DNA of 64,000 bases from Pirellulaceae bacterium (GTDB taxonomy: Bacteria; Planctomycetota; Planctomycetia; Pirellulales; Pirellulaceae): positions 1-64,000 of the forward strand of contig JADYZV010000142.1 of the NCBI GenBank assembly GCA_020852965.1, written 5' to 3'. The notes beneath the pieces are model-generated. The model was not told where the DNA came from. It did not search any database and saw only the letters and a program-made list of their open reading frames with translations. Below are positions 6,783-62,496 of the stretch, piece after piece. Each line of letters starts with the position of its first letter. The first letter of the stretch is position 1. Position numbers and translations under genes: made by a program.

Positions 6783-6806
6783 GGGACTCGTAACCTCGTC
6801 CACTAC
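6783..6806. repeat. Family D repeat, single arm
   Basis: Reads GGGACTCGTAACC followed by TCGTCCACTAC, the right-hand arm of the family D hairpin found in full elsewhere (for example 54930-54984). No left arm is present, so this is a solo or decayed copy. It lies in the 380-base gap before the DUF1549 gene. Confidence 0.85.
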
Positions 6807-6844
6807 AGTTTTGACAAGCGGCAATTGGATTTCGGGGAAAACTC

Positions 6845-6870
6845 TTGAATGGGGGCGTGTATGTTATAAT
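6845..6870 (+). promoter_or_regulatory. Possible promoter upstream of the DUF1549/DUF1553 gene
   Basis: A perfect TATAAT at 6865-6870 is preceded by TTGAAT at 6845-6850, but the 14-base spacing is short for a sigma70 promoter. It is the best candidate in the 6644-7023 gap, about 150 bases before the chosen start. The rest of the gap holds a family D arm (6783-6806) and nothing else I can recognise. Confidence 0.3.
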
Positions 6871-7023
6871 AGTGGTTGGGCCGAAGGTCTTATCCCACCT
6901 CCTAACGATATCCTGCCGATGACACTTTCCATTCATTCATCACGATCCAATCGTCAAATCTCTGGGTTACAACGCTTTATCCACTCGCAATGGTTATCGG
7001 CACGGCTAGCTAGGAGGCTGACG

Positions 7024-10000
7024 ATGGTGCCTGCCGCCTGTTGCCTGCTGTTATGGTGCTGTACCGCTTGGGCGGATGAGGAAGCAGTAGCTAGAAACAC
7101 TCCGACGGAGATTGATTTTGCGCGTGACATTCGGCCGCTGCTATCCGACCGCTGCTTTCTATGCCATGGTCCCGATGCGGAACAGCGGGCGAGCGACTTG
7201 CGGCTTGACGTGCAGAGCTCCGCTCATCAATTAGCCATCAAACCTAGCGATGCGGCCAATAGTGAGCTAGTGCGGCGCATTACCAGCGACGATGCCGACG
7301 AGCTCATGCCGCCTCCCGATTCGAATTTAAAGTTAAACGCAGCCGAACAAGAGCTACTGCGCCACTGGATAGATCAAGGGGGCGAGTACGAGCAGCATTG
7401 GGCATTTGTCGCGCCCGAGCGTCCCGCAGTCCCTGAAATAAAACAAACCGCTTGGCCTCGCAGCGATTTGGACTGTTTCGTACTTAATCGACTCGAACAA
7501 GAGCAACTCTCCCCCAGCCCGCCAGCGGATGCGGTGACATTGATTCGCAGACTGACGCTCGATTTGACCGGTTTGCCACCCACGCTTGAGGAACTCGATT
7601 CGTTCTTGGTCGACTACGAGGAGCAGCCAGATGTGGCCTACGAACGGCTGGTCGATCGCCTGCTGTCGAGCGAGCGCTATGGAGAACGCATGGCCGTCGA
7701 TTGGCTCGACGTTGCACGCTACGCCGACACCTATGGCTATCAGGCGGATCGATACCGCGCGATGTGGCCCTGGCGCGATTGGGTAGTGCAAGCCTTCAAT
7801 CAGAACCTGGGCTACGACGACTTCATCACCTGGCAGCTCGCCGGTGATCTGCTGCCCGATGCCACGCATGAACAGATTTTGGCGACCGCTTTCAATCGCA
7901 ATCATCGGCAGACGAATGAAGGAGGGAGTGTCGAAGAGGAGTTCCGTAGCGAGTACGTGGCCGATCGTGTCAACACGTTTGGGGCCGCCTTCTTGGGACT
8001 AACGCTCGAATGCTGTCGCTGCCACGATCACAAATACGATCCTATCACGCAACGCGAATACTATCAGTTCTCGTCGTTCTTCAATAGTATCGACGAGTCG
8101 GGTTTGTATTCGCATTTTACCGACGCTACGCCAACACCAACGTTGTTACTCCCCGACGATAGTCAAGCGACCGAGCTAGCCAGTGTTCAGGCCGAGATTG
8201 ATTGCGCTCAAGCGAATTTGGCGGAATGGCAGCCTTCCTCTGGCGAGTTCGCCGCCAAGTTTGCTGGCGAGTTTGAGGAATGGCGCAACCGACTACCAGA
8301 TGTTCGGCTTGCAGAGACTGCTGATCCAACGGAAGGGAACCGACGGCCGAGCGTCGAGCCACATTCATCAGACTCACATGGAAACCGACGGCGGAGCGTC
8401 GAGCCACATTTATCGGACTCACATGGAAACCGACGGCGGAGCGTCGAGCCACATTTATCGGACTCACTGCGAATGCAGCTCGAACGCTCGTTGTCTGAAT
8501 CGCTGGTGGGAGATTTTTCACTCGACAAAGTCGAAGATGGTAAATTGCTCAATCGAGTCGATCAAACATGGTCAGGAACAACTGCGGATGGTCCCGAGCC
8601 GGTGTCGGGCCGTGTCGGCCAAGGCCTGCGACTCAGCGGCGACAACACCGTTTCAATCAAAACCGGTAGTGACTTCACACGCGATCAACCCTTTACGATT
8701 TCGCTGTGGCTCAAAGCTACGGAACGCTTCGATCGAGCGGTCATTTTTCACCGATCGCAGGCATGGACCGACTCCGGCAGCCGTGGTTATGAGCTGCTGA
8801 TTGAGAACGGCAAGTTGAGCGCTGGGATAATCCACTTCTGGCCAGGCAATGCGCTGCGAGTAGTCAGTAGCGAAGAGTTGCCGCTCGACCGTTGGGTCCA
8901 AGTCGCGGTGCGCTACGATGGTTCTAGCCAAGCGGCTGGGCTAAGTCTATTCGTCGACGGGCAGCCTGTGGCGACCGAAGTGGTCCGCGATTGTTTGACC
9001 AAGCACATCATCGGTCACGATGCTGCGGCCGCTCTCGACCTGAGCTTCGGGCAGCGCTTTCGCGACCGAGGACTCAAGAATGGTGAGATCGACGAGCTCA
9101 AAGTCTTCACACGAGACTTGAGTGACTTGGAGTTGAAAGTGCTGTACTTGCGCGACGCCGCGCCGGAAAATTTAGCCGAGGTGTTGCACAACGTCGACCA
9201 AGCTGCCTTGCAGGACTATTTCTCACGCAGGCATTCACAACGCGTCGAGCAGGAAGCCGCCTTGCGACAACTTCGCGAACGTCGCAATAAGTTGTCGAGT
9301 GCGATAGCTGAGATCATGATCATGCGCGAACAGCCCACGTTGCGGCCGACCCATATTTTGTTGCGTGGTGCCTACGATGCGCCGGGTGAGCTGGTCGAAC
9401 GCGCTCTGCCTGCCAGTATATTGCCGACGAAAATCGGCCCCGACGCTTCGCGACTTGATCTAGCGCGATGGCTGGTCGATCCGCAGCATCCTCTGACGGC
9501 GCGGGTAGCGGTCAATCGCTTTTGGCAGTCGCTGTTTGGTCAAGGGTTGGTCAGTACGGCTGAAGACTTTGGCCTGCAGGGAGCTTCCCCCTCACACCCC
9601 GAACTGCTCGATTGGCTATCGGTCGAGTTTGTGGAATCGGGGTGGGATGTCAAACGGCTATTGAAAGCCATTGTCATGTCCGCCACTTATCGGCAATCGT
9701 CCAATCCGACACCGGCACTGTTGGAACGCGACCCTGAGAATCGACACCTCGCGCGCGGGCCTGCCGGAAGACTACCGGCGGAGATGATTCGCGATACGGC
9801 GCTGGCCGCCAGTGGCTTGTTGGTCGAGACTGCGGGTGGTGCTCCCGTGAAGCCATATCAGCCGGAGGGTTTGTGGGAGGAAAAGGCTGGGCTAACCTAC
9901 GAACGCGACACCCAAGCGGGCAGCCATCGTCGCAGCTTGTATACCTATTGGAAACGCACATCGCCGCCACCATCCATGATGACCTTGGATGCCAGCAATC

Positions 10001-10569
10001 GAGAAGTGTGTGTGGTGCATCGCCAAGTTACGATGACTCCGTTACAAGTACTGGTGCTGCTGAACGATCCGCAGTATGTGGAGGCGGCTCGTGCACTGGC
10101 ACAGCGGGCGATGGAGAGGAGTGTCGAGGGTGCTCATTTAATGTGGCCCGACGCTCCGCGTCGGAATGCGGCGCAACGGGCGATGGAGAGGAGCGCGGAG
10201 AAAGCTGAGGGGGAAGTGAGGGAGGAAGTGAGTGGGGAAGATAGTGGGGAAGATAGTGGGGAAGATAGTGGGGAAGATAGTGGGGAAGACGGGGACTCAC
10301 GACGCGGAGCGTCGAGCCACATTAATACAGCCAGCTTCATCTTTCGCTCGCTGACGGCGCGCGTTCCTACGGAGGGCGAACTGTCTGTGCTGCTAAGAAT
10401 GTTCCAAGAGCAAAAGGGCTTGTTGGCCAGCGATCCGGCCGGTCGCGACCAATGGTTGTCGATCGGCGATCAGCAACCCGCTCAAGATATCGACCGAGCC
10501 GAGCTGGCTGCCTGGAGCGCAGTTGCCAGTGGCTTGATGAGCTTCGATGAAACTGTGATGAAGAGATAG
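7024..10569 (+). CDS. Secreted DUF1549/DUF1553 protein with cytochrome-like motif and LamG insert
   Basis: A very large exported protein typical of planctomycetes. The frame is open from 6709, but ATG 7024 is preceded by AGGAGG at seven bases and opens a clear signal peptide ([20 protein letters not shown]), so I place the start there: 1181 residues. In order: a planctomycete cytochrome-like motif with CFLCH near residue 46, DUF1549 ([13 protein letters not shown]; then [12 protein letters not shown]), a LamG-like domain at about 490-720, and DUF1553 at about 800-1010 ([14 protein letters not shown]). The LamG and repeat insertions make it longer than usual. Two in-frame family C insertions lie at about residues 438-481 and 1039-1100. 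DUF1501 follows in an operon. The biochemical role is unknown; family members often sit near polysaccharide-degradation genes. Confidence 0.85.
8337..8467 (+). repeat. Family C insertion in coding sequence: three 45-base units
   Basis: Three tandem 45-base units (period shown by 8382 and 8427) encode a 15-residue repeat, approximately [15 protein letters not shown], inside the DUF1549 protein between DUF1549 and LamG. Each unit contains CGGAGCGTCGAGCCACATT, the same core as at 10139, 10297, 23280 and 62322. The reading frame is kept because the period is divisible by three. Confidence 0.85.
10139..10325 (+). repeat. Family C pair plus 12-base tandem array in coding sequence
   Basis: A family C core on one strand (ATGTGGCCCGACGCTCCGCG at 10141) and another on the opposite strand (ACGCGGAGCGTCGAGCCACA at 10301) bracket a tandem array of GAAGATAGTGGG units (about 10230-10290, five copies, encoding Gly-Glu-Asp-Ser). 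The gene segment coding QRAMERS appears before (about 10102-10122) and again after (about 10174-10194) the first core, a 72-base duplication around the insertion. All of it stays in frame. Confidence 0.8.
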
Positions 10570-10577
10570 AGATAACC

Positions 10578-12080: not shown

Positions 12081-12120
12081 CGCCAATCGAATACAAACTC
12101 TTCATTCAAGCAGAATAAAA

Positions 12121-15711: not shown

Positions 15712-15736
15712 TAGTGATTCATCGCAGATGCAAATT

Positions 15737-16069
15737 GTTTAACGCCTAGCCGCAGTAGCTGGTGGAGCGGAAATGATTATTACTACGGAGATTTGGCACA
15801 AAGCATGATTGATTGAACCAGCGCAGGTATGCCAGCTACGTAGGCGCAGGCAGGAGCGGTGTCGATTGCACCCAGCCAGGACGCGCGTGCGCCAGAGCGC
15901 GAACCAAGCATGGTTGGCATTCGCATTGGAGCATAGCAGGTGGCTGTCGCAGGAGCCATCGCCTGCGTAGTCCGCGAGTGAGGGTTGGTTAGCGCCGTGG
16001 TGCATCAGAGACTTGTGTATTGCCCAAGTCACCTCGTGCATCGCGGCCTACTCCGGCTCGGCGTTAAAC
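15737..16069 (+). repeat. Family B element, copy 1 (333 bp)
   Basis: Begins GTTTAACGCCTAGCCG and ends CGGCGTTAAAC, so the termini form an inverted repeat of about 22 bases. Copy 2 follows directly at a 357-base period. The 15712-16459 gap holds only these two copies and short spacers. No convincing open reading frame lies inside. Confidence 0.88.
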
Positions 16070-16093
16070 GACTATTCATCGTCGATGCAAATT

Positions 16094-16426
16094 GTTTAAC
16101 GCCTAGCCGCAGTAGCTGGCGAAGCGGAAATGATCATTACTACGGAGATTCGGCACAGAGCATTATTGATTGAACCAGCGCAAGTATGCCAGCTACGTAG
16201 GCGCAGGCGGGAGCGGAGTCGATTGCGCCCAGCCAGGACGCGCGTGCGCCAGAGCGCGAACCGAGCATGGTTGGCATTCGCATTTGAGCATAGCAGGTGT
16301 CTGTCGCAGGAGCCGTCGCCTGCGCAGTCCGCGAGTGAGGGTTGGTTAGCGCCGTGGTGCATCCGAGACTTGTGTATTACGCAAGTCACCTCGTGCATCG
16401 CGGCCTGCTGCGGCTCGGCGTTAAAC
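16094..16426 (+). repeat. Family B element, copy 2 (333 bp)
   Basis: Nearly identical to copy 1, including the preceding spacer GATGCAAATT, so the pair probably arose by tandem duplication of a 357-base unit. It ends 33 bases before the next gene. Inverted ends are GTTTAACGCC and GGCGTTAAAC. Confidence 0.88.
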
Positions 16427-16459
16427 GATTGTTAGAACATTTATCGAAAGGAAAGCAAC

Positions 16460-18490: not shown

Positions 18491-18515
18491 CAAATGGTGC
18501 CGACTCGCTGAATTC

Positions 18516-18846
18516 GTTTAACGCCGAGCCGCAGCAGACCGCAGGTGCACGGGGGGAGTTGTTCAATAGGCGAGTCTCTGATGCACCACGCCGCGTGCCA
18601 ACCCACTATTGTCGGTCTGCGCAGGCGACGGCACTTACGACAGCCACCTGCTTCGCGCCAGGCGCACATGACAACCCACTCTGCCCGCTGGCGCACAGGT
18701 TTCGCACTGCGGCGCAATCGACTCCGCTTCTGCCTGCACCTACGCAGCCGGTATACTCGCGCTGATTCAACAACCACAACGTAGTAGCACTACTCCACAA
18801 TAGGCATCACTCACGATCCACCGGCTACTCCGGTTAGGCGTTAAAC
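18516..18846 (-). repeat. Family B element, copy 3 (331 bp)
   Basis: Opposite orientation to copies 1 and 2: its reverse complement aligns along most of their length, including the core read here as CTGCGCAGGCGACGGCAC. AATTC occurs on both flanks, which could be a target duplication. It starts 25 bases after the preceding gene. The rest of the 18491-18918 gap shows nothing else. Confidence 0.85.
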
Positions 18847-18918
18847 AATTCGCTCCGAGCCGCAGATTGCCCCTGCACTAGCCAAGCAGAGCGTTAGGCC
18901 GGCAATCCAAATTGACGC

Positions 18919-22284: not shown

Positions 22285-22312
22285 ATAGTGGACGAGTCGA
22301 CGAGTCCCTCGG
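22285..22312. repeat. Family D repeat, decayed left arm
   Basis: ATAGTGGACGAGTCGACGAG followed by TCCCTCGG, a variant of the left arm, just upstream of uvrB. A full copy begins 16 bases further on and shares the TCCCTCGG continuation, so this looks like a partial duplication. Confidence 0.7.
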
Positions 22313-22327: not shown

Positions 22328-22394
22328 GTAGTGGACTAGGTTACGAGTCCCTCGGATTCGAAACATCTCAGGGACTCGTAACCTCGTCCACTAC
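22328..22394. repeat. Family D hairpin, full copy, overlapping the comEA 3' end
   Basis: Left arm 22328-22350 (GTAGTGGACTAGG then TTACGAGTCC) and right arm 22371-22394 can pair over about 22 bases with one mismatch and a 20-base loop. The right arm, read on the minus strand, encodes VVDEVTSP and the TGA stop of the comEA-like gene. Confidence 0.9.
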
Positions 22395-22760
22395 GTGCAG
22401 GGTCAGCATGGGGCGCAGTTGGTGCAACGTCCGCTCGCCAACCCCGTGGACCTGCAACAAGTCGTCTAGTTCACGGAACGGTCCTTGAGTTCTACGATAT
22501 TCGACAATTCGGGCGGCTAAGGTGGAACCTACGTTGGGCAGTGCTTCCAGTTCATTGGCAGGTGCCTGATTCACATCGACAATGAAGCGCGGTGTTGGTA
22601 TGGACTGACGGTCAATCGCGTTGGATTTATCGCTGGGCGCGCTCGCCCGTTGCAGTGCGAGGGCAAATTGCTGACTGGCGGCCAGCAGCGATAGGCAGGC
22701 CAGCAGCCAACACCAGCTACGAATGATCGAAAAGCGGTTGGGTTGGTCGCTTGTGGTCAT
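22368..22760 (-). CDS. ComEA-like helix-hairpin-helix DNA-binding protein
   Basis: A 130-residue protein: an N-terminal membrane segment or signal (about residues 14-36, WCWLLACLSLLAASQQFALAL), a linker, then a ComEA-type helix-hairpin-helix domain (VDVNQAPANELEALPNVGST, LAARIVEYRRTQGPF, LLQVHGVGERTLHQLRP; about 61-117). Such proteins bind double-stranded DNA outside the membrane in competence, but many short ones have no proven role. The last eight residues, VVDEVTSP, and the stop come from a family D repeat arm, so the original end has been replaced. The gene is divergent from the NRPS gene, with 73 bases between the chosen starts. Confidence 0.8.
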   Translation of the reverse strand: MTTSDQPNRFSIIRSWCWLLACLSLLAASQQFALALQRASAPSDKSNAIDRQSIPTPRFIVDVNQAPANELEALPNVGSTLAARIVEYRRTQGPFRELDDLLQVHGVGERTLHQLRPMLTLHVVDEVTSP

Positions 22761-22833
22761 TGCGTCCTTTTCTCAGCCCATGAAAATAGTGAATCGACTA
22801 TTATACAGCTTTCACCCCCTCCTGGGCAATTCG

Positions 22834-25800
22834 ATGAGCAGCCAATCGGCACTGAACGCACTCTCCGCCACTCAGCAGCGCGAAATGCTGGCCAAACTGC
22901 TGCGTGCCAAGGTGGCAGGGGCACAGCGTTTTCCCATGTCGATCGGTCAGCAGGGGCTGTGGCACGCCTTTCGTCGCGATCCCGAGTCGACATCCTTCAA
23001 CGTCTTTTTGCCTACTCGCATGCGGGCTCACCTCGACACTGGGGCCCTGCAGCGTGCGGTCGAGTGTGTAGCCGCACGACATGATTGCTTGCATAGCGTC
23101 TTCTCCGATTCCGGTGGTGAGCTGATGCTGGAGGTACAACCCGACTTGCTCCCCGCTTTTGAAGTCATCGACTTGGAAAGTGTTGGTGAGCGGCAGGAGG
23201 GGGAAGGGGGTGCTGGTGCGAAAGAGGGGGTGAATGAGGGGGTGAAAGAGTGGGGGAAGGAGTGGAGGAAGGAGCTTCCGACGACGGAGCGTCGGGCCAC
23301 ATTCGGAGAGCAGCAGGTGCGGGCGGCGGTCGCTAGGGCAACGCTCGCTCCGTTTGACTTGCAACGCGGCCCGCTTTTTCGTGTGCAGGTCTATCGCTTG
23401 GCCGAAGACGACTGGATCGTGTTGGCAATGACGCATCACATAGTCGTCGACTTTTGGTCACTGGTCATTATTGTTGATGAAATGCGTGCGGCCTATCCTT
23501 GCTTCGCCCAGCAGCGTGCGCCGCAGTTGCCGCCGCCGGAGAATAACTTTGCTCAGTTCGTGCGTGATCAACAGTTGCTGTTGGCCAGCCCACGCGGGGA
23601 CGAACTGCGTGATTACTGGCAAAAGACCGTGGCTCGGGCGACTAGCGTGCTCGATCTTCCCAGCGATCGCTTGCGGCCAATTGTGTTTGAGAACGCGGCG
23701 CGCAGTGCACCTCTCGAATTCCCAGCGAGCACTGCCTCGAACATAGTCAAGTTGGCGGCGCAATCCAAGGCGACTCCTTTCTCCGTCGTGCATGCCGCGT
23801 TGCAGGTCTTCTTGGGCCGAATGAGCGGTCAAACAAGCTTTCTGATTGGCAGCCCCTTCTCGGGACGCAGCAAAGGTGAGTATGAGCGCACCGTCGGCTT
23901 CTTCATCAATATGCTGCCACTGCTTGCCGATTTGGGTGGCGATCCAACCTTTGCGCAGTTGATCGTGCGTACCAGTGAGAACTTGCTCGATGCGCTCGAG
24001 CATGAAGCCTATCCTATCGTGCAGATCACGCACGACGCGAAGGTATCGCGCGATCCATCGCGCAGCCCGTTGTTTCAAGTTTCCTGCACGTTTGAAAAAT
24101 CGCAATTGAAGTCAGAGGTCGGCCGTGCATCGTTCCTCTTCCCCGATCAGCAACAAGTGTGGGACTTTGGCGGGTTACCCCAAGAGGGTTTCTATGTCCC
24201 CCACCCAACATGCCACTACGACCTGGAGTTCATTTTCGAGCAGACCGAGACTCACTTGCGCGGCATGATCGTCGCTTGCCGCGCCCTGTTCGAGGAAGCG
24301 AGCGTCAGAGCGATGGCGCAGAATTTCTCGCAGTTGCTGCAACGACTACTCGGCGACAGCCAACGGCCGCTTTCGCAAGTGAGCTGGGGCGAACCCGATG
24401 TGGTGTCGCTGGCAGCGTGCTCCAGTACCGACGCAGCAGAGCAGGGCCATGGCGCGAGATCGACTACTAGCCAAGCTAGCACGGTGGATCGTATGCTTTT
24501 TGCCGCTACCAGCTCGAATCCCTCGGGAGTCGCGTTTCAATTTGCTGGCAGGCAGATCAGCTACACCGAGCTGTGGCACTCAGCTACGAGGCTGGCGAAA
24601 CGCATCGAACACTGTTACCCAGAGAAACGAGCCAATTCACGCGATGCGGCCAATCGAGAATCTCGATCCATTTTGCCGATCTATACAGAGTCCGGTCCGC
24701 TGGCGTTTATTGGAATGCTGGCCGCTCACTTGACGGGTGCGGCGTCAGCGGCCATCGATGCGCGACAGCCTGCAGTGGAGCTGCAAACGCTATGCACCGA
24801 GCTGAATGCCCGTTGTTGGCTGGGCGACTCGTCGTCGAATAGCACTCAAGATACGATGCCGATTGACCTGGCTGAGTCATTAGGCGAAGTAGATGCCGAC
24901 GTCGGAAAGCCAAGCGCGCCCGAGGCCACACGGGCGACCGATGCGGCCTATTTGATCTATACCTCAGGTTCGACCGGCCGCCCCAAAGGTGTACTGGTCG
25001 AGCATGCCGCCGTTTGCAATACGTTGCACTGGCGACAAAAGGCAGTGCCGCTGTTTCCCAGCGATCGAGTGTTCATGTTGCTGTCGCACCAGTTCGATGC
25101 AGCTCTTGGAATTGGTTGGACAACGTTAACTCAAGGCGCTACCCTAGTGTGGCCCGATAGCGTGGGGAAGGTGGATCCCGAGAGTTTGTTAGAGCAGATT
25201 ATCCGCGATCGCATTACCGTACTGCCGGCTGTTCCAAGTCTATTGCGAGTGCTGGTGGCGCATCGGCTGTTTGCACAGTGCGATAGTTTGCGATTGATTT
25301 TTACCGGTGGCGAGCCACTCCCACCAGAATTGCCGAGTCAAGTGCGGCAAATCAGTCAGGCTAAGTTTTGGAATTTCTACGGCCCATCGGAAGCTGCCAT
25401 CGAAGCCACTGCCTGCGAGGTAACCGATCACAGTCCGCAGCTACCGGTTCCTATCGGGCGACCGATCGACAACATGCAAGTGTTGGTGCTCGATGCCGAG
25501 CGGCAACCTGTTCCCGTTACAGTCCCAGGAGAATTGGCAATAGCTGGAGTTGGACTGGCGCGCGGTTATTGGAATGGAACCGAACTCGACGCAGAATTAA
25601 CGGCACAAAAATTCGTCTCCGTCAATGGCCTGCGGGTCTATCTAACTGGCGACCGAGGGCGGCGGTTGCCCGATGGTCAGCTTCAATTCTTGGGACGCGA
25701 CGATCATCAAATTAAACTGCGAGGATATCGCATCGAACTGGGTGAAATTGAAGCGGTTCTTGAGTCGCATCCTCAGGTCGAACGGGCGGCCGTGAAGCTT

Positions 25801-27273
25801 GTCGGCGGGGGGCTCCCGCAAGCTCAACTGTTGGGTTTCGTGAGTCTGCTTCCGAACGCAAGAGACTCAGACGAAATGCCAGTCGAACAAGCGGCAGTCC
25901 AGTCAGCCACATTGTCCGCCGGCCTGCGGCGTTTTGTCAGCGGTCGCTTGCCGAGCTACAAAGTTCCCACAGCGATTGTGATCGTCGACCCTATGCCGCT
26001 GACAAGCAGCGGTAAAGTTGACCGACGGCGACTTCCCGACACCCTGCCTGAAACGCTTGCCGATGAACATTTCATTGCAGCCGAGACGCCTCTGGAAGAG
26101 TATCTGGCCGCTGCTTGGTGCGAGAGTCTGCGGGTCGAACGTGTGAGTGTGGATCGCAATTATTTCGATGCGGGTGGAAGTTCTTTGCAAGCCGCTATGT
26201 TGACCACTCAATTGAGCCAAGACTTGGGAGTGTATGTGCCGACGGCGCTGTTGTTTGATTTGGTGGACATCGCACACATGGCACTGCGCTTGGCCGAGCT
26301 GCATAGCGCAGAGTTGTCGGCGCGGTTTGGCGGCGACTGCTTGATGAGGCAGATCTCGCGCATGAATGCGTTGGCTGCGAATGGCACGCAGAGGATGGAA
26401 ATTGAGTCGCACGTTGAGGGGGCCGAAGTTGACGGACCAAATCCTAGGGCGACAGCTCCGTTGCTTTCCTCACGCTCCGCGCGGCTCCATCCACTGCTGG
26501 CTCCGTTGAAAGTCAGCGGATCACGGACGCCGATCTTTATGGTTCATCCGCCCGGCGGAATCGTCGTTTGCTACCGCGAGTTGGCTCGACAGCTCGCGGC
26601 CGATCAGCCATTGTTGGCACTGCGATCGCGAGGCTTACATGGTGCTGAACCACTGCCGCCAACGCTCGCAGCCATGGCCGCCGACTATGTCGAGGCGGTG
26701 CGCGCCTATCAGCCGCAGGGTCCCTATACGCTCGGCGGCTGGTCGCTGGGAGGTCTGGTAGCCTACGAGATGGCCCAACAACTACTACATGCTGGTCAGG
26801 AACTATCGCACTTGATCTTACTGGATACCACCATCCCGGCGGGAGCTACGGAGCTGGTTCCAGCGAGCGAATTGGTCAATGTGGGGCTCGAATATGGTAT
26901 TGAACTGACCTTGGACGAGCTTGGAGCGCTCGCACCTGAAGAGCAATTGCGGTTCTTGTGGGAGCACGCTCAGGGACTGGGGGTACTCGATGACAATTCT
27001 CCCCCAGAAGTGGTAGCGAGGGTGCTACAAGATTTACAGCAGCTCTTTCATCACCATGTTCAGTTGTCGCGGGCCTATCGCATCCAGCCGTTAAACGGAC
27101 GTATCGAACTGATTCGACCAAGCGATACACCTGTCGCCCTACCCGTTGCCCACGATCGCGGCTGGAGCCACTTGGCCCGCTCCGTGCGAGTGCAGTTCGT
27201 TTCGGGACACCATCACAGTATGGTTCAGTCGCCGCATGTCGAGCAATTGGCACAAATCATTAATTCCTTTTGA
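22834..27273 (+). CDS. Single-module non-ribosomal peptide synthetase (C-A-PCP-TE)
   Basis: About 1479 residues from ATG 22834; the frame is open to 22723 and no start has a good ribosome-binding site. Domains: condensation (about 35-470; active site MTHHIVVD near residue 200, FFINMLPLL), adenylation (about 555-1060; LIYTSGSTGRPKG, NFYGPSEA, YLTGDRGRRLPDG, QIKLRGYRIELGEIE), a carrier with phosphopantetheine serine in YFDAGGSSLQA (about 1110) and thioesterase (1230-1479; GWSLGGL nucleophile, GHHHSMV histidine). All core motifs are intact. A condensation domain in front of one adenylation domain means that an acyl or peptidyl donor must come from elsewhere. An N-acyl amino acid or a short acyl conjugate is a reasonable guess. 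A family C insertion sits at residues 118-157. No partner synthetase or phosphopantetheinyl transferase is in the window. Confidence 0.88.
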   Translation: MSSQSALNALSATQQREMLAKLLRAKVAGAQRFPMSIGQQGLWHAFRRDPESTSFNVFLPTRMRAHLDTGALQRAVECVAARHDCLHSVFSDSGGELMLEVQPDLLPAFEVIDLESVGERQEGEGGAGAKEGVNEGVKEWGKEWRKELPTTERRATFGEQQVRAAVARATLAPFDLQRGPLFRVQVYRLAEDDWIVLAMTHHIVVDFWSLVIIVDEMRAAYPCFAQQRAPQLPPPENNFAQFVRDQQLLLASPRGDELRDYWQKTVARATSVLDLPSDRLRPIVFENAARSAPLEFPASTASNIVKLAAQSKATPFSVVHAALQVFLGRMSGQTSFLIGSPFSGRSKGEYERTVGFFINMLPLLADLGGDPTFAQLIVRTSENLLDALEHEAYPIVQITHDAKVSRDPSRSPLFQVSCTFEKSQLKSEVGRASFLFPDQQQVWDFGGLPQEGFYVPHPTCHYDLEFIFEQTETHLRGMIVACRALFEEASVRAMAQNFSQLLQRLLGDSQRPLSQVSWGEPDVVSLAACSSTDAAEQGHGARSTTSQASTVDRMLFAATSSNPSGVAFQFAGRQISYTELWHSATRLAKRIEHCYPEKRANSRDAANRESRSILPIYTESGPLAFIGMLAAHLTGAASAAIDARQPAVELQTLCTELNARCWLGDSSSNSTQDTMPIDLAESLGEVDADVGKPSAPEATRATDAAYLIYTSGSTGRPKGVLVEHAAVCNTLHWRQKAVPLFPSDRVFMLLSHQFDAALGIGWTTLTQGATLVWPDSVGKVDPESLLEQIIRDRITVLPAVPSLLRVLVAHRLFAQCDSLRLIFTGGEPLPPELPSQVRQISQAKFWNFYGPSEAAIEATACEVTDHSPQLPVPIGRPIDNMQVLVLDAERQPVPVTVPGELAIAGVGLARGYWNGTELDAELTAQKFVSVNGLRVYLTGDRGRRLPDGQLQFLGRDDHQIKLRGYRIELGEIEAVLESHPQVERAAVKLVGGGLPQAQLLGFVSLLPNARDSDEMPVEQAAVQSATLSAGLRRFVSGRLPSYKVPTAIVIVDPMPLTSSGKVDRRRLPDTLPETLADEHFIAAETPLEEYLAAAWCESLRVERVSVDRNYFDAGGSSLQAAMLTTQLSQDLGVYVPTALLFDLVDIAHMALRLAELHSAELSARFGGDCLMRQISRMNALAANGTQRMEIESHVEGAEVDGPNPRATAPLLSSRSARLHPLLAPLKVSGSRTPIFMVHPPGGIVVCYRELARQLAADQPLLALRSRGLHGAEPLPPTLAAMAADYVEAVRAYQPQGPYTLGGWSLGGLVAYEMAQQLLHAGQELSHLILLDTTIPAGATELVPASELVNVGLEYGIELTLDELGALAPEEQLRFLWEHAQGLGVLDDNSPPEVVARVLQDLQQLFHHHVQLSRAYRIQPLNGRIELIRPSDTPVALPVAHDRGWSHLARSVRVQFVSGHHHSMVQSPHVEQLAQIINSF
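23188..23303 (+). repeat. Family C plus purine-rich tandem repeat inside the NRPS gene
   Basis: An imperfect G/A-rich array (units such as GAGGGGGTGAAAGAGTGGGG) runs directly into the family C core (ACGGAGCGTCGGGCCACATT, about 23284-23303). It encodes a Glu/Gly/Lys-rich loop and ERRATFGE within the condensation domain, after the VIDLES strand. The same order, purine array then core, occurs at 10230-10325. Confidence 0.8.
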
Positions 27274-27287: not shown

Positions 27288-27354
27288 GTAGTAGACCAGG
27301 TTACGAGTCCGTTTGATACGCGGTACGTTAGGGACTCGTAGCCTCATCCACTCC
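27288..27354. repeat. Family D hairpin, full copy
   Basis: Left arm 27288-27310 (GTAGTAGACCAGG then TTACGAGTCC) and right arm 27331-27353, with a 20-base loop and several mismatches. It lies 14 bases after the NRPS stop and could act as its transcription stop, though no T-run follows. The remaining 27355-27588 sequence shows no gene; a TTGGCT/TAAAAT pair near 27453-27478 could be a weak promoter for the next gene. Confidence 0.85.
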
Positions 27355-37201: not shown

Positions 37202-37232
37202 AACTAAGAACTAAGAACTAAGCACCAAGAAC
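37202..37232. repeat. Short AACTAAG heptamer array before the SDR gene
   Basis: Three AACTAAG heptamers and a degenerate CACCAAG run directly into the SDR start codon at 37233, leaving no recognisable ribosome-binding site. The reverse complement, CTTAGTT/CTTGGTT, is the unit of the large array at 54023-54134. Confidence 0.75.
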
Positions 37233-38000: not shown

Positions 38001-38194
38001 CAACATTGCACAATACTTGCCTCATGCCCGGCAAGCGGCCATAGGGCCAGGCACAATCGTCCAAGCGGATACATGATTAAGCCGGTCTGACGCTCAAGCC
38101 TATACTCCAACACGAACGGGCGCTGTCTAGCTGGACGCAATCGACTATATTGACTCCAAAGTCCGTTATCTATGGAATTAAGGATGATCACGCA

Positions 38195-39838: not shown

Positions 39839-39846
39839 TTCTCATC

Positions 39847-39918
39847 GTGTGGACGAGCCAACGAGTCCCCTCCTGCCATCGAATTATGCAGCTCAGGACT
39901 CGTAACCTCGTCCACCAC
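39847..39918. repeat. Family D hairpin, full copy
   Basis: Left arm 39847-39869 (GTGTGGACGAGCC then AACGAGTCCC) and right arm 39896-39918, with a 26-base loop and a few mismatches, nine bases after the pgi stop. Read on the minus strand, its right arm encodes VVDEVTSP, as in the comEA-like gene. Confidence 0.85.
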
Positions 39919-45232: not shown

Positions 45233-45335
45233 CGCCTGTCGCCCCTTCAGGGCTTGCGCTGCTGGGCGCTCTACTTCACCTGGGATTTGCATCCCAGGCT
45301 ATCTCAAGCCGTCCCTATCGGGACTAAAAACTGGG
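45233..45335. repeat. Palindrome-rich intergenic repeat overlapping the kinase 3' end
   Basis: Contains CCTGTCGCCCCTTCAGGGCT, CACCTGGGATTTGCATCCCA and CCGTCCCTATCGGGACTA, each with short internal inverted repeats. This type of sequence is common as a dispersed element in planctomycete genomes (from general knowledge). Its last bases provide the stop of the kinase frame. Confidence 0.5.
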
Positions 45336-46329: not shown

Positions 46330-46509
46330 GCAGGAAATATGTGGGATAGGCTTCTAGCCTGCCATGCCGGAATTGACAGGCTGGGAGTCGATCCCACCTT
46401 CCAAAACCGACAGTGAGAAACCGAAACTGTCTACATAGTATCACGCTTGAGCAGGCGAATTCTTACAGCCGCCGACGGAAAATAATACAGTTTTTTACGA
46501 CATAAAATC

Positions 46510-46844
46510 GTTTAACGCCGAGCCGTAGCAGGCCGTTATGCACAAGGCGAGCTGATCAACGGATGGAGCTCCGACGAACCACAGCACATCTCAACCCGCT
46601 GTCGCGGCCTGCGCAGGCGACGGCACCTGCGGCCGCCAACATCCTCGCCAATATGCGCATGCCAACCAACTCTGCCCTCTGCCCTATGTGGCGATGAGCC
46701 CGCGCCGAAGTGCAATCGACTCCGCTTCTGCCTGCGCCTACGTAGCCTGTGGTCTCGCGCTCGTTCAACTACTGCAGCTTCGTAGCACCACTCCATAGTA
46801 AACATAACTCATGATCCACCGGCTACTCCGTCTCGTTGTTAAAC
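46510..46844 (-). repeat. Family B element, copy 4 (335 bp)
   Basis: Same orientation as copy 3. It begins GTTTAACGCCGAGCCG and ends GTTGTTAAAC, with the right end more diverged. The central CTGCGCAGGCGACGGCAC is intact. It lies 180 bases upstream of the broken sigma/kinase locus, as the other copies lie beside the intact one. Confidence 0.85.
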
Positions 46845-46868
46845 AATTTGTCTCAACTAGCTGAAACC

Positions 46869-52031: not shown

Positions 52032-52098
52032 GTAGTGGAGGAGGTTACGAGTCCGATTGATTCGTAAAACGTTTGGGACTCGTAACCTCGTCCACTAC
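52032..52098. repeat. Family D hairpin, full copy
   Basis: Left arm 52032-52054 (GTAGTGGAGGAGG then TTACGAGTCC), right arm 52075-52098, 20-base loop, one mismatch. It lies 49 bases before the SDR start. A longer in-frame start for that gene would begin with repeat-encoded residues, MGLVTSSTTS. Confidence 0.9.
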
Positions 52099-53018: not shown

Positions 53019-53046
53019 GTAGTGGACGAGGCACTAGTCTCCCGAT
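53019..53046. repeat. Family D repeat, decayed left arm
   Basis: GTAGTGGACGAGGCACTAGT followed by CTCCCGAT: an intact first half of the left arm and a diverged second half, with no right arm. It precedes the parA-like gene. Confidence 0.7.
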
Positions 53047-53195: not shown

Positions 53196-54023
53196 ATGCG
53201 ATCAATTGCAGTCATCAATCAGAAAGGTGGGGTGGGTAAGACCACAACCGCCGTCAATCTAGCCGCATCGCTTGCGGAAGCAGGTCGCCGCGTATGCGTG
53301 CTCGACCTCGACCCCCAAGCTCACGCATCGTTGCATCTAGGTTTGTCGGTCATCGACGACCAGCCGAGCGTATATGACATTTTGTGCGGCGACGCCGCGA
53401 TCGACGACGCACGCAGTTGGGTCAACGAACGTTTGGCCATCGTCCCCTCGAGCCTCGATCTGGCCGCAGCCGAGATGGAATTGGCTTGTGAAGTCGGGCG
53501 GGAAGTGATCCTGCGCGACAAATTGGAAGTCGACACCGAGGAATTCGATTTCCTCATACTCGACTGCCCACCATCGCTGGGTGTGTTGACGCTCAATGCG
53601 TTGACCGCTGTCGACGAAGTCTTCTTACCGCTTCAACCGCACTTCTTGGCGCTACACGGGCTGAGCAAGCTGTTGAAGACGATCGAGATCGTAGCCAAAC
53701 GATTAAATCCCAGCCTGCACCTGTCGGGCGTGGTATTGTGCATGTACGAATCGAGCACTCGCTTGGCGGCTGAAGTGACACGCGATGTGGATGAGTTTCT
53801 GCAGTTGCAGTCACGCGGCGGTGGCGTGTGGGCTGGCGCCAAATTCTTCCAAACTCGGATTCGCAGAAACATACGCTTGGCCGAAGCGCCGAGCTTTGGA
53901 CAGTCGATTCTCGAATACGCTCCGACATCCAATGGGGCCGAAGACTATCGCGCCTTGGCTCAAGAGTTCATGGAATTGCGTGTTGGTCGCCATGCTGAGC
54001 GCGAAGTCGCGCGGGCTGCTTAG
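53196..54023 (+). CDS. ParA/Soj-family ATPase
   Basis: A 275-residue ParA-type ATPase. From ATG 53196 it opens directly with the deviant Walker A INQKGGVGKTTTAVNLAASL (about residues 7-26), then VLDLDPQAHASLHLG (A' motif), and FDFLILDCPPSLGVLTLNAL (Walker B). GVVLCMYESSTRLAAEV and NIRLAEAPSFGQSILEYAP are typical of chromosomal Soj. The frame upstream to 53022 is unconserved. There is no parB neighbour, so a role in chromosome segregation is not assured; orphan ParA proteins also position other cargo. The stop codon is the first element of a heptamer array. Confidence 0.87.
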   Translation: MRSIAVINQKGGVGKTTTAVNLAASLAEAGRRVCVLDLDPQAHASLHLGLSVIDDQPSVYDILCGDAAIDDARSWVNERLAIVPSSLDLAAAEMELACEVGREVILRDKLEVDTEEFDFLILDCPPSLGVLTLNALTAVDEVFLPLQPHFLALHGLSKLLKTIEIVAKRLNPSLHLSGVVLCMYESSTRLAAEVTRDVDEFLQLQSRGGGVWAGAKFFQTRIRRNIRLAEAPSFGQSILEYAPTSNGAEDYRALAQEFMELRVGRHAEREVARAA

Positions 54024-54134
54024 TTCTTAGTTCTTGGTTCTTGGTTCTTGGTTCTTGGTTCTTAGTTCTTGGTTCTTGGTTCTTAGTTCTTGGTTCTTGG
54101 TTCTTGGTTCTTGGTTCTTGGTTCTTGGTTCTTG
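54023..54134. repeat. Heptamer tandem array, about 16 x (T)TCTTGG(T)
   Basis: About sixteen units of GTTCTTG with occasional GTTCTTA fill 112 bases from the parA stop to the next family D copy. The same heptamer, on the other strand, is at 37202-37232. A seven-base unit shifts frame at each copy, so coding use is unlikely. Length is probably variable between strains. Confidence 0.92.
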
Positions 54135-54201
54135 GTAGTGGACGAGGTTGCGAGTCCCGGAGAACTAACGAATCGAACCGACTCGTTGCCTCGTCCACTC
54201 C
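54135..54201. repeat. Family D hairpin, full copy
   Basis: Left arm 54135-54158 (GTAGTGGACGAGG then TTGCGAGTCCC), right arm about 54180-54201 (ACTCGTTGCCTCGTCCACTC). The paired changes at the same position (TTGC with GTTGCC in place of TTAC with GTAACC) are partly compensated, one keeping G opposite T. It sits between the heptamer array and the lipoprotein gene. Confidence 0.85.
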
Positions 54202-54929: not shown

Positions 54930-54984
54930 GTAGTGGACGAGGTTACGAGTCCCTAACAAACGGACTCGTAACCTCGTCCACTAC
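54930..54984. repeat. Family D hairpin, full copy with perfect arms
   Basis: Left arm 54930-54952 and right arm 54962-54984 are perfectly complementary over 23 bases (GTAGTGGACGAGG then TTACGAGTCC) with a nine-base loop. This is the clearest copy and can serve as the reference for the family. Confidence 0.96.
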
Positions 54985-56934: not shown

Positions 56935-56995
56935 CTGATTTAATTCTCAAGAAGAAACGCTACTGCGTTTGCTTTCGATGCTCGATCACTCGAGC

Positions 56996-58190: not shown

Positions 58191-58258
58191 AGGCTGCATT
58201 CTCAGTATGTCAATCTTCGAACCTTAGACTTCTCATGCAAGCATTGCCGCCAGTCCCG

Positions 58259-58392
58259 AATTGGGTAAAGGGGCCAGAAGTCTGCTTGCATTACCCCAAG
58301 GCGATCTGCTATTGCGCAATCGCAAATCGCATTATGTTGCAGAATTGCTATTGGTGAAACGCATTCACCTATGCTACCGTTTTACCCCAATC
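58259..58392. repeat. Family E repeat, copy 2
   Basis: Opens AATTGGGTAAAGGGGCCAG and closes GTTTTACCCCAATCCCG, with about 95 bases between. The ends match the element at 2283-2366 but the interior does not, which fits a REP-like pair bounded by conserved ends. It fills most of the 58191-58467 gap. Confidence 0.55.
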
Positions 58393-58467
58393 CCGTTATT
58401 GCTGCGCTCGCTTCCCCAGAAAAGCTAGTGTGGGCTTGTTTTGTCATTGGCATAAGGAGGAGCCTTC

Positions 58468-61400
58468 ATGCAACTTGTTAACATGGACGTTGAACGTCAC
58501 GGATCGTTCGGACCCTTTTCATTGGGCCCCCTCTCACCAGGCCTCAACGCACTGTGCGGCCCAGCCGGCTCGGGCAAAACGACCCTGCTGTCTTGGTTGC
58601 GCCAATTGGCGGAAGAAGATCACCAGCGGGGCGCAAACGGCCTCCGCTCAACTTGGAGCCGCACTCGTCCTGCATTGCTCGGCAGTGTCGAAGTAGCCAA
58701 TCGCGGACTTCGCTTTCGCCTGGGGGGCCACAGTTCGGTGCCGCGTGGTCATTCGCACAGCCACTACGCGTACGACGCTCGACCGCTCGATCAAGCTGGC
58801 ACAAACCTAACCGCTCGACAGCTTGAAGCCTTCGCCGCCATGGCCTCGACCAGCCCTGCCTTGAATCTCACTCCCCATGAGGCCCTAGCCGGTATCGAAA
58901 GCGGACTAGAAATCACTGCCCAGCGTTTGGGACTCGATGCACACCCAGCCCGATCGTACCAGCACCCCGATCGCGAGCACCTGTTGGCACGTCAACGCGA
59001 TATCGAGTCGCGTTTGCAGCACCTGAGTCAACTACAATCGTCGCGTGAAATCCTACTTTCTCGACGCGATGATCTGCAGCGCGAATTACAGAACGCCCAC
59101 TCGAATCCGCAAGTTGCAAATGCACAGGCTGCGTTGCGTTATGAAGGCTATCCCAGCGAATATCGACGCTACGGCGAACGCTTCGCGCTTATCGAAGCTG
59201 ATTTGCGCGAGTCCGAAACACGACTCGCAGAACTCGATCGCGAATTGGCTAGCCTGCAAGCCGAATTGAAACTGCTGGAGACTTCACGGCACTGCGTCAC
59301 GGTCGACGACTCCTATCGAGTGCAGTTGCAACAGATCGATGAACGCTTGACGCGTTGGCGGCAAACGCTGCGCGATCTCAAAGGACATCGCAACCACATC
59401 GAACACGAAGCTACCGACGCACGCTTGGATCGACAAGTCGGCGATCAGTTGTCAGCCACCAAAGAGCCCGATCCTCGCGCTCCACTGCGGTCGCTCGAGG
59501 CCCAGATTCTCTCCGCGCGCAATCAGCTCGACGCCCTAGTCGATCGCTACAGCGTCTTCCAAGATCAACGCGGTCAGGGCACGCGACGCGGCTACGGCGA
59601 CGGGCGCAGCGGCTACGCAGTGCATCAGGATACCTCGGGCCGCACCCACATAGCCTATACGGATAACCACTACTATCCCGACTCGAGCAATCTGCCCGAC
59701 ACGCTGCGCAGCATGCAAAAGGATCTGTACGAAGCCTGCCAACAGTTGGCACGCCATGAATCGCGCGCAGCCACCGAAACGCTCAAACAGCAATCGCAAC
59801 AATTGCAGCGTTGCGAGTCGGAATTGCTGCATTCGGTCGAGAAGTTGATCGAAGAACGCGCTGCACTGCTGCGAAAAATCGCCGACCAGTATCAGTTGTC
59901 TGCCGAGCAATTGTCGTTAGCATTTGGCGATTGGTGCAACTGTCACGACCACAATCATCTCCACGATTGGCTGCTCAGTGAAGCGGACATTAAGACTTCG
60001 CATACCGGTGCCGACCCGCTAGCGCGCCAGCGATTGCTCGAAAAGATTTCAGGCATTGAACTCCAACGCAAGCAAGTCACTTTGCATTGTGAGGGCTGCC
60101 GTCGACAGTTGCGCGACGCCGAGCTGCACCGAGTCGACTTGGTCGATCGTCGCGCCGATCGACACCTGGCGCCGCGAGGGCGCATGGTTGATGAAATCCA
60201 GCGTGAACTGCATGACGTATTGGCTCAGCTCGACCAATGGGAAGACCGTGAGCGACTGCTGCGTGAAGCGGAGGACTTGCGCCTGCGTTTGACGGCCGAG
60301 CAGCCGGTCCAAGATCTAGGCGGTCGTTTTCGTGAACTCGTCCATCGGCACATCGCCGGCTTGATGGGCGGTCGGGAACGCTTTAGCTCGCGTGCTGCCT
60401 CCCGCAATGTGTCGGAAGGCATGCAGCGCCGCTACGACCTGGTGGATGGAATCGTCTACGACCAGGAACGGCGTCTTGAGATCGAGGTGCCCTCGTCGCT
60501 GGTACGCGTCGCTCAGCGTCTAGCGATAGCCGAAGCCATGGCTGCACGCGCCGAGCCGGTCCCGGTGTTGATCGACGAAGCGCTTGATCGCCTCGCCCAC
60601 GATGAACAAGCGGCTGCCATCGCCTACTTGGCGCGGATCGCTGCAGGCCAACAAATCGTGCTGATGACCGGCAACGAACGTGTGGCCGAATTGGTCCGAC
60701 AACGGCATGGCTGGGTCGCCTACCTCCAGCCCCATGTGGCACCAGCCGTGGATATCAATCGACACCTTACCGCTCTGGCCAACGACTACGAAGCCGCCAA
60801 ATGGTTTCAACCCAACGTCGACGCCGAACCGCTTCGTTCGACGTCGCAATCGGTGCCGTTCTACCTGACCGAGCGCTCTCGCATTGAGCAATCGCCCTCG
60901 ATCGATGGAGTTTTAGCTGCTCGCTTGCGCGCTATCGGAGTCGATCGCATCGGTGATCTGCTCGATGTCGACCCCCGCTGGCTGGCCGAACAACTTCGTC
61001 AAGACGGTGTTAACGACACCACGATATCGAGCTGGCAAGCCGAAGCGCGCCTGCTCTGCTCGGTGCGGCAATTGCGCCCCTTCGACGCGCGTCTGCTGGT
61101 ATCGATCGGCGTTCGCACACCGCAGCAGTTAGCGGATATGCATCCAAGTCAACTGCTCGACCGCGTCGAGCGATTCGTTGCCACCGATCGTGGGCGTCGC
61201 TTCTTGCGCAGCGGTAGTAGCTACGAGCTGTCCCGGATTACCAATTGGATAGCATCGGCCAAGGGAGGGGCTGGTCGCTTCCAAGGTTCGAGCTTCGAAG
61301 ATCAGCCTGCCGGAAGTGAGTCCAGCCGCAATGGCTATGAATCAGCACACAATTCGCGCCGCGGATCGAGACGCTCTGCGAGTAACGGGTCGTCCCGCCG

Positions 61401-62322
61401 CGATGCCGCCTGGAACGGTTGGACCGATACGCAGGACGAGTACAATTCGCAGGGTGAGTACGAGCAAGAGCTGCGGGACGGCTATCCAGCAGACTACGAC
61501 CGAGACCCAAACCGCAATTATCCACGACGAACTCGGAGCGACGCAAGGCAATTGGCTCCGGGGGACGTCAAGTACGACGACGATTTCAACACGCCGCGTC
61601 GCGAAAGCACAACGCGCCGAACTTCGGATCGCGAGGGGAGTTCACGACGTCAGCGTCGTTCCAGCGCTTCGTCGCGCACCGGCCGCTCACGCTCGTCGGA
61701 CCGTAGTTCCCCCGACTATTCCAACTTGCGTCGTTCGAAACGTTCGACCGCATCCAGCGATCGCAAGATCCAACCTGTGGTCGCGCGTGAAGAACGGAGC
61801 GAGCGACGGTCTCGGCCAAGTCTTGAGCGCGAGGTGCGCGAGCCGCGCCGAACGGAAGCTATCAAGTTGGCCGAAACTACCCCTCTGAAGTTCTATTTGG
61901 AATTGGCCAGCCCAGTTGTCGACGCGCCGTCGATCGGTCCCCGCATGGCCGCCCGTCTGGAAGCGTTGGGGATTTTTACCGTCGATCAATTGTTAGCTGC
62001 CAACGCAGAATCGCTGACAGACAAGCTGAATCTGCGCCGCGTCGATGCGACTACGGTACGTGCTTGGCAGGAGCAAGCGCGTCTAGTATGCCGCATCCCC
62101 AACATGCGCGGCCACGACGCTCAGTTGTTGGTCGCCTGCGATTTGACGTCGCCCGAAGAGCTGGCAACGATGCAAGCTGCCAGTGTTTTGGCACAGGTCT
62201 TGGTCGTTGCCGAGAGCAGCGAGGGACAACGCATCCTGCGAGGCAGCAAACAACCCGACCTGGCTGAAGTCAAAGACTGGATTGAATGGGCCAGTCAATG
62301 CCGCTCGCTCAACGCGGCCTAA
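58468..62322 (+). CDS. Large SMC-like ATPase with two DUF4332 (helix-hairpin-helix) regions
   Basis: A 1284-residue cytoplasmic protein. N-terminal Walker A, LCGPAGSGKTTLLSWLR (about residues 29-45), belongs to an ABC/SMC-type head. Long coiled coils (about 165-640) contain many Leu/Glu/Arg heptads, and the head closes with Walker B PVLIDEALDRLAHDEQAAA (about 697-715) and a switch MTGNERVA. Two repeats of a DUF4332-like helical module follow: about 795-930 (SIDGVLAARLRAIGVDRIGD, SWQAEARLLC) and 1137-1281 (SIGPRMAARLEALGIFTVDQ, WQEQARLVC). Between them is a 200-residue Arg/Ser-rich disordered stretch. AAGGAGGAG precedes the ATG. It looks like a DNA-acting, SMC/Rad50-like machine; no partner nuclease is adjacent. 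Confidence 0.8.
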   Translation: MQLVNMDVERHGSFGPFSLGPLSPGLNALCGPAGSGKTTLLSWLRQLAEEDHQRGANGLRSTWSRTRPALLGSVEVANRGLRFRLGGHSSVPRGHSHSHYAYDARPLDQAGTNLTARQLEAFAAMASTSPALNLTPHEALAGIESGLEITAQRLGLDAHPARSYQHPDREHLLARQRDIESRLQHLSQLQSSREILLSRRDDLQRELQNAHSNPQVANAQAALRYEGYPSEYRRYGERFALIEADLRESETRLAELDRELASLQAELKLLETSRHCVTVDDSYRVQLQQIDERLTRWRQTLRDLKGHRNHIEHEATDARLDRQVGDQLSATKEPDPRAPLRSLEAQILSARNQLDALVDRYSVFQDQRGQGTRRGYGDGRSGYAVHQDTSGRTHIAYTDNHYYPDSSNLPDTLRSMQKDLYEACQQLARHESRAATETLKQQSQQLQRCESELLHSVEKLIEERAALLRKIADQYQLSAEQLSLAFGDWCNCHDHNHLHDWLLSEADIKTSHTGADPLARQRLLEKISGIELQRKQVTLHCEGCRRQLRDAELHRVDLVDRRADRHLAPRGRMVDEIQRELHDVLAQLDQWEDRERLLREAEDLRLRLTAEQPVQDLGGRFRELVHRHIAGLMGGRERFSSRAASRNVSEGMQRRYDLVDGIVYDQERRLEIEVPSSLVRVAQRLAIAEAMAARAEPVPVLIDEALDRLAHDEQAAAIAYLARIAAGQQIVLMTGNERVAELVRQRHGWVAYLQPHVAPAVDINRHLTALANDYEAAKWFQPNVDAEPLRSTSQSVPFYLTERSRIEQSPSIDGVLAARLRAIGVDRIGDLLDVDPRWLAEQLRQDGVNDTTISSWQAEARLLCSVRQLRPFDARLLVSIGVRTPQQLADMHPSQLLDRVERFVATDRGRRFLRSGSSYELSRITNWIASAKGGAGRFQGSSFEDQPAGSESSRNGYESAHNSRRGSRRSASNGSSRRDAAWNGWTDTQDEYNSQGEYEQELRDGYPADYDRDPNRNYPRRTRSDARQLAPGDVKYDDDFNTPRRESTTRRTSDREGSSRRQRRSSASSRTGRSRSSDRSSPDYSNLRRSKRSTASSDRKIQPVVAREERSERRSRPSLEREVREPRRTEAIKLAETTPLKFYLELASPVVDAPSIGPRMAARLEALGIFTVDQLLAANAESLTDKLNLRRVDATTVRAWQEQARLVCRIPNMRGHDAQLLVACDLTSPEELATMQAASVLAQVLVVAESSEGQRILRGSKQPDLAEVKDWIEWASQCRSLNAA

Positions 62323-62350
62323 CGTGGCCCGACGCTCCGCCGTCGGATTC
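62322..62350. repeat. Family C core, intergenic copy
   Basis: ACGTGGCCCGACGCTCCGCC then GTCGGATTCC directly after the stop of the ATPase gene; same core as the in-frame copies at 8337-8467, 10139-10325 and 23284-23303. It shows that the element is not restricted to coding sequence. Confidence 0.75.
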
Positions 62351-62392
62351 CTCACCCAATTGCCTCTTACACATAAAACAACAGCGAGTGAA

Positions 62393-62496
62393 GTAGTGGA
62401 CGAGGTTTCGAGGCCGTTTGATCCGCTATTATACGTTTAGGGACTCGTAACCTCGTCCACTACAGCCTCCAAAGGACTCGTAACCTCGTCCACTAC
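62393..62496. repeat. Family D hairpin with an additional arm
   Basis: Left arm 62393-62415 (GTAGTGGACGAGG then TTTCGAGGCC), right arm 62440-62463 and a second right arm 62474-62496, so the element has one left and two right arms. The spare arm may be a partial duplication. It separates the SMC-like gene from the next lipoprotein gene. Confidence 0.88.

Follow-up and report, generated by a model that had tools for sequence, protein, structure and literature searches.

Family D, a dispersed repeat in the 64,000-nucleotide stretch of Pirellulaceae DNA analysed here (the window), is very probably a REPIN population, in which 23-nt GTAG REPs arranged in inverted pairs are spread by a RAYT; a transposase acting on single-stranded DNA most likely distributed the copies between genes. 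A preliminary description had placed these repeats among REP-like or hairpin MITE elements. The REP-like part of that assignment is borne out by the GTAG foot, the inverted doublets, the intergenic location, the hundreds of copies, a RAYT flanked by the repeat in relatives and one site that is empty in congeners, while the part that would make them classical DDE elements with target duplications is not (0/17 pairs).

Every one of the seven pairs in the preliminary description, and its solo arms, were located in the window by a sequence check and a mismatch scan. The reference copy, 54930..54984, is a perfect 23-bp inverted repeat with a 9-nt spacer, as described. Four further REPINs have a spacer of 21 nt, namely 22328..22394 (arms 22328-22350, + strand, and 22372-22394, − strand), 27288..27354, 52032..52098 (from the mismatch scan) and 54135..54201, the last immediately after a heptamer tandem repeat. 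The REPIN at 62393..62463 has a spacer of 25 nt, and a decayed REPIN at 39846..39918, previously placed at 39847, has arms with 4 and 1 mismatches and a spacer of 27 nt. Among the solo arms, which we take to be decayed or partial copies, an exact arm at 6784..6806 (− strand; previously placed at 6783) lies within the first 100 nt of the longest ORF at 6709-10569, whose true start may be further in. Two extra arms are in tandem to pairs, one at 22285..22307 (+ strand, 2 mismatches, from the mismatch scan) beside 22328..22394 and one at 62474..62496 (− strand, exact) beside 62393..62463. The arm at 53019..53042 (+ strand) is half-decayed: its head half, GTAGTGGACGAGG, is intact and the remainder altered; it is recognised in the sequence and is absent from the scan at up to 5 mismatches. 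A candidate at 362-384 (5 mismatches, inside a gene) was rejected as noise-level, the controls giving 0-4 matches at 5 mismatches; it is still among the 100 arms behind the arrangement counts given below. No Rfam family matches the window copies at gathering thresholds.

Other repeats share the window. A second REP-like family (GTGGCTCGACGCTCCGCCGTCGG and variants) is located at 8335-8469, 10293-10337, 23278-23303 and 62321-62351, and 464 kb of the same genome contain 31 occurrences of its most frequent 14-mer. A longer dispersed repeat, with ends AATTGTTTAACGCC, lies at 15717-16430, 18511-18850 and 46497-46850, in pieces of up to 300 nt that are 71-94% alike and in both orientations. Heptamer tandem repeats (TTGGTTC/TTAGTTC) are located at 54005-54134, where they abut the REPIN at 54135, and at 37202-37250, and an Acido-Lenti-1 RNA (RF01687) matches 45279-45325 with 41.5 bits.

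The family D arm is a sharply bounded 23-mer, GTAGTGGACGAGGNNACGAGTCC, composed of GTAG, T, GGACGAG, GNNA and CGAGTCC. Specifically, the information content is ~1.6 bits at the first G versus 0.02-0.34 bits in the five preceding bases, and the foot (GTAG; GTRG in general form) is an exact GTAG in 75/95 arms. Neighbouring arms less than 120 nt apart form 46 pairs, of which 28 are heads-out, 6 are ++, 11 are −− and 1 is heads-in (counted on the 100 arms that a limit of 5 mismatches yields in 738,205 sampled bases from the same genome). The heads-out spacers have a preferred length, 21 nt in 17/28. The loops had been described as unrelated; this does not hold for the 17 spacers that measure exactly 21 nt (a length found in 4 of the seven window copies), which share the consensus CTGACGCATACCGAATCAAAC at a mean pairwise identity of 0.53, versus a shuffled mean of 0.27 and maximum of 0.30, the scoring having left out the other 11 spacers (9-39 nt). 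In the unit that we propose, a GTAG foot is followed by one T and then by a small hairpin in which GGAC-GA-G and C-GA-GTCC would enclose a GNNA loop. The mobile unit would presumably consist of two inverted REPs with their GTAG feet outward, separated by a short spacer, mostly of 21 nt.

Family D extends far beyond the window. At up to 2 mismatches, 611 arms are present in the 8.37 Mb genome and a reversed-pattern control gives 0; at up to 4 mismatches, 95 arms are present in 738,205 sampled bases, compared with none in any of the five first-order Markov controls. Because all these controls are empty, chance is excluded as the source of the arms. The sampled contigs are arm-rich: at up to 2 mismatches, their 738 kb contain 82 arms where the genome mean predicts ~54. 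Their arm count leaves out tiles L054, L055, L058, L061 and L304. Across the family, arms (at least one match) occur in 87/241 Pirellulaceae genomes and 21/68 genera, with a single reversed-control match in total. The window's genome has the highest arm count of the 241, and planctomycete TBK1r has 448. Single matches at 2 mismatches may be due to chance, and a lone Natronoglomus match probably is. Among the matches listed for a restricted pattern (at least 114 stretches), arms are found in Rhodopirellula solitaria, maiorica, sallentina, rubra and europaea, in Stieleria sedimenti, Rubripirellula obstinata, Roseimaritima sediminicola and Aporhodopirellula aestuarii, in planctomycetes TBK1r and CA13, and in several Pirellulaceae MAGs.

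These high-copy repeats are extragenic. Only 9/100 arm midpoints fall in predicted genes, yet 82% of the sample is coding according to a simple purpose-made gene caller, in agreement with the earlier statement that copies are intergenic or at gene ends. The arms form 54 clusters, located in gaps between same-direction (36), divergent (7) or convergent (5) genes or inside predicted genes (6).

One site permits a comparison with congeners. The REPIN at 54135 lies between a ParA-like ATPase gene and its neighbour, and is absent in 6/6 congeners that keep these flanking genes together (G009, G004, G007, G012, G010 and G006). The search behind this one-site comparison covered 12 genomes and detected the upstream gene in 10 of them, in 6 together with the downstream gene. 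No arm of up to 4 mismatches occurs in ~3.7 kb at the six syntenic loci, and none of the 10 upstream-gene loci has an arm. For window positions 60500-63900, no genome was seen with both flanking genes together.

No target duplications were seen, with 0/17 isolated pairs flanked by a direct repeat of 4-9 nt; direct repeats of 2 and 3 nt flank 2 and 1 of the 17 pairs, versus shuffled means of 1.4 and 0.4. We considered whether the family could be a classical MITE, that is, a deletion derivative of a DDE transposon that has terminal inverted repeats and is mobilised by cut-and-paste with target duplication. Such an element would share with family D the short inverted repeats and the many extragenic copies, but it would not account for the lack of 4-9 nt end repeats, the single arms that make up 22/54 arm clusters, the GTAG that begins each arm, or the RAYT flanked by arms in three relatives (below), and we consider it highly improbable. 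The empty site, the lack of target duplications, the heads-out pairs and the extragenic location of the arms together identify the elements as REPINs rather than classical MITEs. The dinucleotide directly after the arm is CT in 35/95 arms and GT in 24/95. Escherichia coli TnpA-REP is reported, in passages of PMC8266576, to cut at CT beside the REP, and the CT after family D arms fits the same cut, without proving it.

The positions of some copies had suggested that they were adopted as transcription ends. Three window copies start 8, 12 and 15 positions past a stop; in particular, the copy at 39846 starts 8 positions past the last stop base (39838) of pgi (38150-39838), and the copy at 27288 starts 15 positions past the last stop base (27273) of the NRPS gene (22723-27273). 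Furthermore, the long RNA hairpins formed by paired arms are predicted to be very stable. TTTT within 10 nt is found at 1 (+ strand) and 2 (− strand) of the 17 isolated pairs, which amounts to 3/34 ends, versus 1.7% of random 10-nt windows. T runs are therefore too rare at the ends for most copies to be canonical intrinsic terminators, and adoption as a transcription end is possible, for example behind pgi and the NRPS gene. The same data bear on an explanation in which the hairpins are maintained by the host as terminators or mRNA stabilisers and were multiplied through host use, any mobility being old and irrelevant. A median distance of 33 nt to the neighbouring gene's 3′ end (n=46), the three copies close behind stops, the stable RNA folds and a TTTT frequency somewhat above background are in its favour. 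Most ends nevertheless have no T run, gene starts are also near (median 60.5 nt, n=50), and the one testable site, 54135, is not conserved between congeners. We therefore regard this explanation as improbable; for a REPIN population, consequences for mRNA ends, if any, would be incidental.

No transposase had been seen in the preliminary description. This stands for the window's own genome, in which we found none flanked by arms, but not as a general statement, because relatives encode a RAYT among family D arms. In TBK1r, a 211-aa ORF is located between two arrays, with 6 exact-core family D arms on each side. In R. sallentina, the RAYT gene runs off the contig, and the side held by the contig carries 4 arms of up to 1 mismatch. 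In G082, a RAYT that is 68% identical to that of TBK1r, found by reading an arm cluster, has arms at both gene ends. A cognate RAYT flanked by the same REP is thus present in three relatives, and none was found in the window's draft genome. Family D arms also crowd within a few kb, with 11 around the RAYT in G082 (L354, 7684-13102) and 14 (20 matches in all) in one stretch of G081 (L352, 7789-15822; L353, 10236-12290), where no RAYT of the TBK1r clade was found in the 30 kb read. This crowding suggests local spread near the enzyme gene and a possible loss of the RAYT in G081. In L237 and L354, the RAYT start is immediately preceded by a REP that can be translated in frame with it, the arm giving LVASSTT or LASSTT.

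The TBK1r protein is a divergent member of its group. It matches the NCBI REP-associated transposase model with 40.9 bits (E 1.3e-9), below the 80-bit cut-off, and no Pfam family at E 0.01. Among solved structures, it matches a single one at E up to 1, that of E. coli TnpA-REP (group 2; PMC8266576, PDB 4er8; E 0.0096), an HUH/Tyr enzyme of the same superfamily. Consistent with a HUH enzyme with a catalytic Tyr, residues His70/His72, Tyr131 and Asn135 are invariant in 12/12 aligned proteins. With the TBK1r RAYT as query, matches were obtained in 11/18 genomes; these are long and single-frame in nine, a frame-broken gene in R. maiorica and a short fragment in G011. Family D arms are present at 2/19 loci with relatives of this RAYT (TBK1r and R. 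sallentina).

The other ten aligned proteins sit among GTAG repeats with different stems and the same layout. One such sister REP of the TBK1r RAYT clade is GTAGTGGATCTTGTTAAAGATCC; the series includes GTAGT-GGATCTT-GTTA-AAGATCC (Rubripirellula obstinata, G045), GTAGC-(T/C)ACCGTC-GCCA-GACGGTG and others. Like family D, the sister REPs have GTAG, at most one further base, a stem of 7-8 bp and a GNNA loop (GTTA, GCCA, GCAA; once GCCC; a 5-nt GNNNA in one subgroup). Unlike family D, they have other stem sequences that are paired throughout (G-T allowed), in a search that covered only fully paired stems of at least 7 bp. A tree of the 12 proteins groups by REP type: the family D pair (93/95) stands beside the GGATCTT pair (88/89), and the two are joined at 83/86. 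Tree supports are moderate, with one of nine inner branches starred, and the G082 and R. maiorica proteins were left out.

In the register of the sister REPs, the family D stem reads G-C, G-C, A-T, C-G, then G-A, A-G, then G-C around GNNA. The 7-position stem thus keeps a tandem G-A/A-G mismatch, with GA/GA in 86/95 arms of the window's genome and GNNA in 78/95. When the mismatch positions were left free, 79 arms were matched in all 40 tiles of this genome, some of them selected for their arms; GA/GA is present in 70, and both pairs are restored in none. The corresponding figure for named genomes, 231/244, is biased, because their loci were fetched by the exact pattern. The GGAC/GTCC stem is the predicted fold of the single arm and is weak (DNA −1.8 kcal/mol, z −0.65; RNA −5.5, z −1.53), in the same register as the paired sister REPs; the two sister REPs examined have strong predicted DNA folds. 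Energy models may underrate tandem G-A pairs, given their stability in DNA. In view of the weak single-arm energies against the strong sister-REP folds, the single-arm hairpin with G-A pairs is one that we infer. The bulged REPs of E. coli resemble family D in carrying a conserved two-base stem irregularity; according to passages of PMC8266576, repairing it cost activity, and SELEX selected the irregularity bases only moderately. Family D differs from E. coli REPs in its 7-position stem, its tandem G-A mismatch and its GNNA tetraloop, and the TBK1r protein differs from E. coli TnpA-REP in matching no Pfam family and in having kin whose REPs have paired stems.

In the window's genome, neither a protein search nor a 12-row profile search detected a RAYT of the TBK1r clade. 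The draft assembly consists of 199 contigs, some of which end near arms, and a REPtron could therefore have fallen into a gap. In G020, a single contig with 113 arms, the profile search gives just one 24-bit match, which suggests that arm-rich genomes without a TBK1r-clade RAYT exist. REPINs, in fewer copies, have already been reported from E. coli genomes without a RAYT (passages of PMC8049555). The preliminary description had pointed to a Y1/IS200 or other transposase flanked by the same arms; the RAYT of the three relatives answers to the latter, whereas Y1_Tnp (PF01797) was rejected as the partner, with 33/33 loci (7 matches in the window's genome and 26 in six relatives) lacking arms of up to 4 mismatches within ~1.5 kb. 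Nor are such arms found near the 30 examined of 48 RAYT-model matches in G000, G004 and G020. Six arm-rich genomes have 63 RAYT-model matches, of which 30 were examined, and 29 of these also lack nearby arms; the negative scans of short loci used a best-match pattern that reports the best hit per locus. ORFs in arm loci gave no match to three distant RAYT queries, a weak search because the queries lie outside the TBK1r clade. The Y1 gene at L010 of the window's genome was rejected as a REPtron: it has a half arm of 13 nt, located 39 nt ahead of the gene start, which is too little. At another locus of this genome (L009, 1004-2206), a Y1 transposase gene is flanked by 107-nt inverted repeats that are 88% complementary, and resembles a TIR-flanked tyrosine transposase gene.

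The window's genome does encode a strong RAYT (169 bits; 188 aa) at L063, 1309-2243, flanked on both sides by a 134-nt element whose two copies are in direct orientation and have GTAGGCTCGTAACGAGTACC as inverted ends. This locus is the REPtron of another GTAG family, and it was rejected as the dedicated family D partner. Its presence, and the TBK1r-clade RAYT not found in the same genome, would be compatible with amplification of family D in trans by an unrelated RAYT such as this one. The L063 repeats have another stem sequence, however, and each RAYT goes with its own REP family in the literature seen in excerpt (PMC6006769), which makes this unlikely. We instead favour the origin given at the outset, in which the copies in the window's genome would have been spread by a RAYT that has since disappeared, is not included in the draft, or has diverged beyond detection.

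By analogy with E. coli TnpA-REP, the RAYT, a HUH single-strand endonuclease with a catalytic Tyr, would bind the folded single-stranded REP via the GTAG, the stem irregularity and the loop, would cut beside the REP, and would re-join the REPIN elsewhere without target duplication. Like IS200/IS605 elements, REPINs have hairpin ends, no target duplication and presumably single-strand HUH chemistry; unlike them, REPINs carry no gene, and the tetranucleotide foot is part of the repeat. Passages of PMC3733652 and PMC3116915 (Bertels and Rainey 2011) describe GTAG REPs and REPINs that resemble family D in the GTAG tag, the small hairpin (predicted for family D), the many extragenic copies, the heads-out dimers, the partly conserved spacers and the RAYT flanked by the same repeats. 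The two adjacent conserved stem mismatches set family D apart from the GTAG REPs of PMC3733652, a survey that kept a hairpin with more than one mismatch in its stem only if it was a dimer partner.

The family is apparently new, and its kind is known. Several GTAG families are listed for Rhodopirellula baltica (Di Nocera et al. 2013, PMC3733652) and were compared with family D by description only. In the excerpted literature on planctomycete REPs and REPINs, PMC3733652 and PMC6006769 are relevant and no other account of family D was found; a literature text search with three short family D strings gave, among the matches listed, none on REPs by title. The predicted mismatched hairpin and the divergent partner enzyme in relatives look new. 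More tentatively, it is possible, if rather doubtful, that REP recognition within one RAYT clade switched between perfectly paired stems and a stem with an obligatory tandem G-A mismatch, with no change in GTAG or in the GNNA-type loop, and that the REPINs of the home species and G020 persist or have expanded, to a hundred to several hundred near-identical copies, without a RAYT of their own, another enzyme serving in trans.

Family D offers a case for asking how hundreds of REPINs persist where the partner RAYT is not found. Beyond the proteobacteria, in which such systems are well studied, it adds a large REPIN system that extends across a family and has a divergent RAYT clade. The natural REP variants of this clade, with a paired or a mismatched stem on the same foot and loop type, allow direct tests of the recognition rules.
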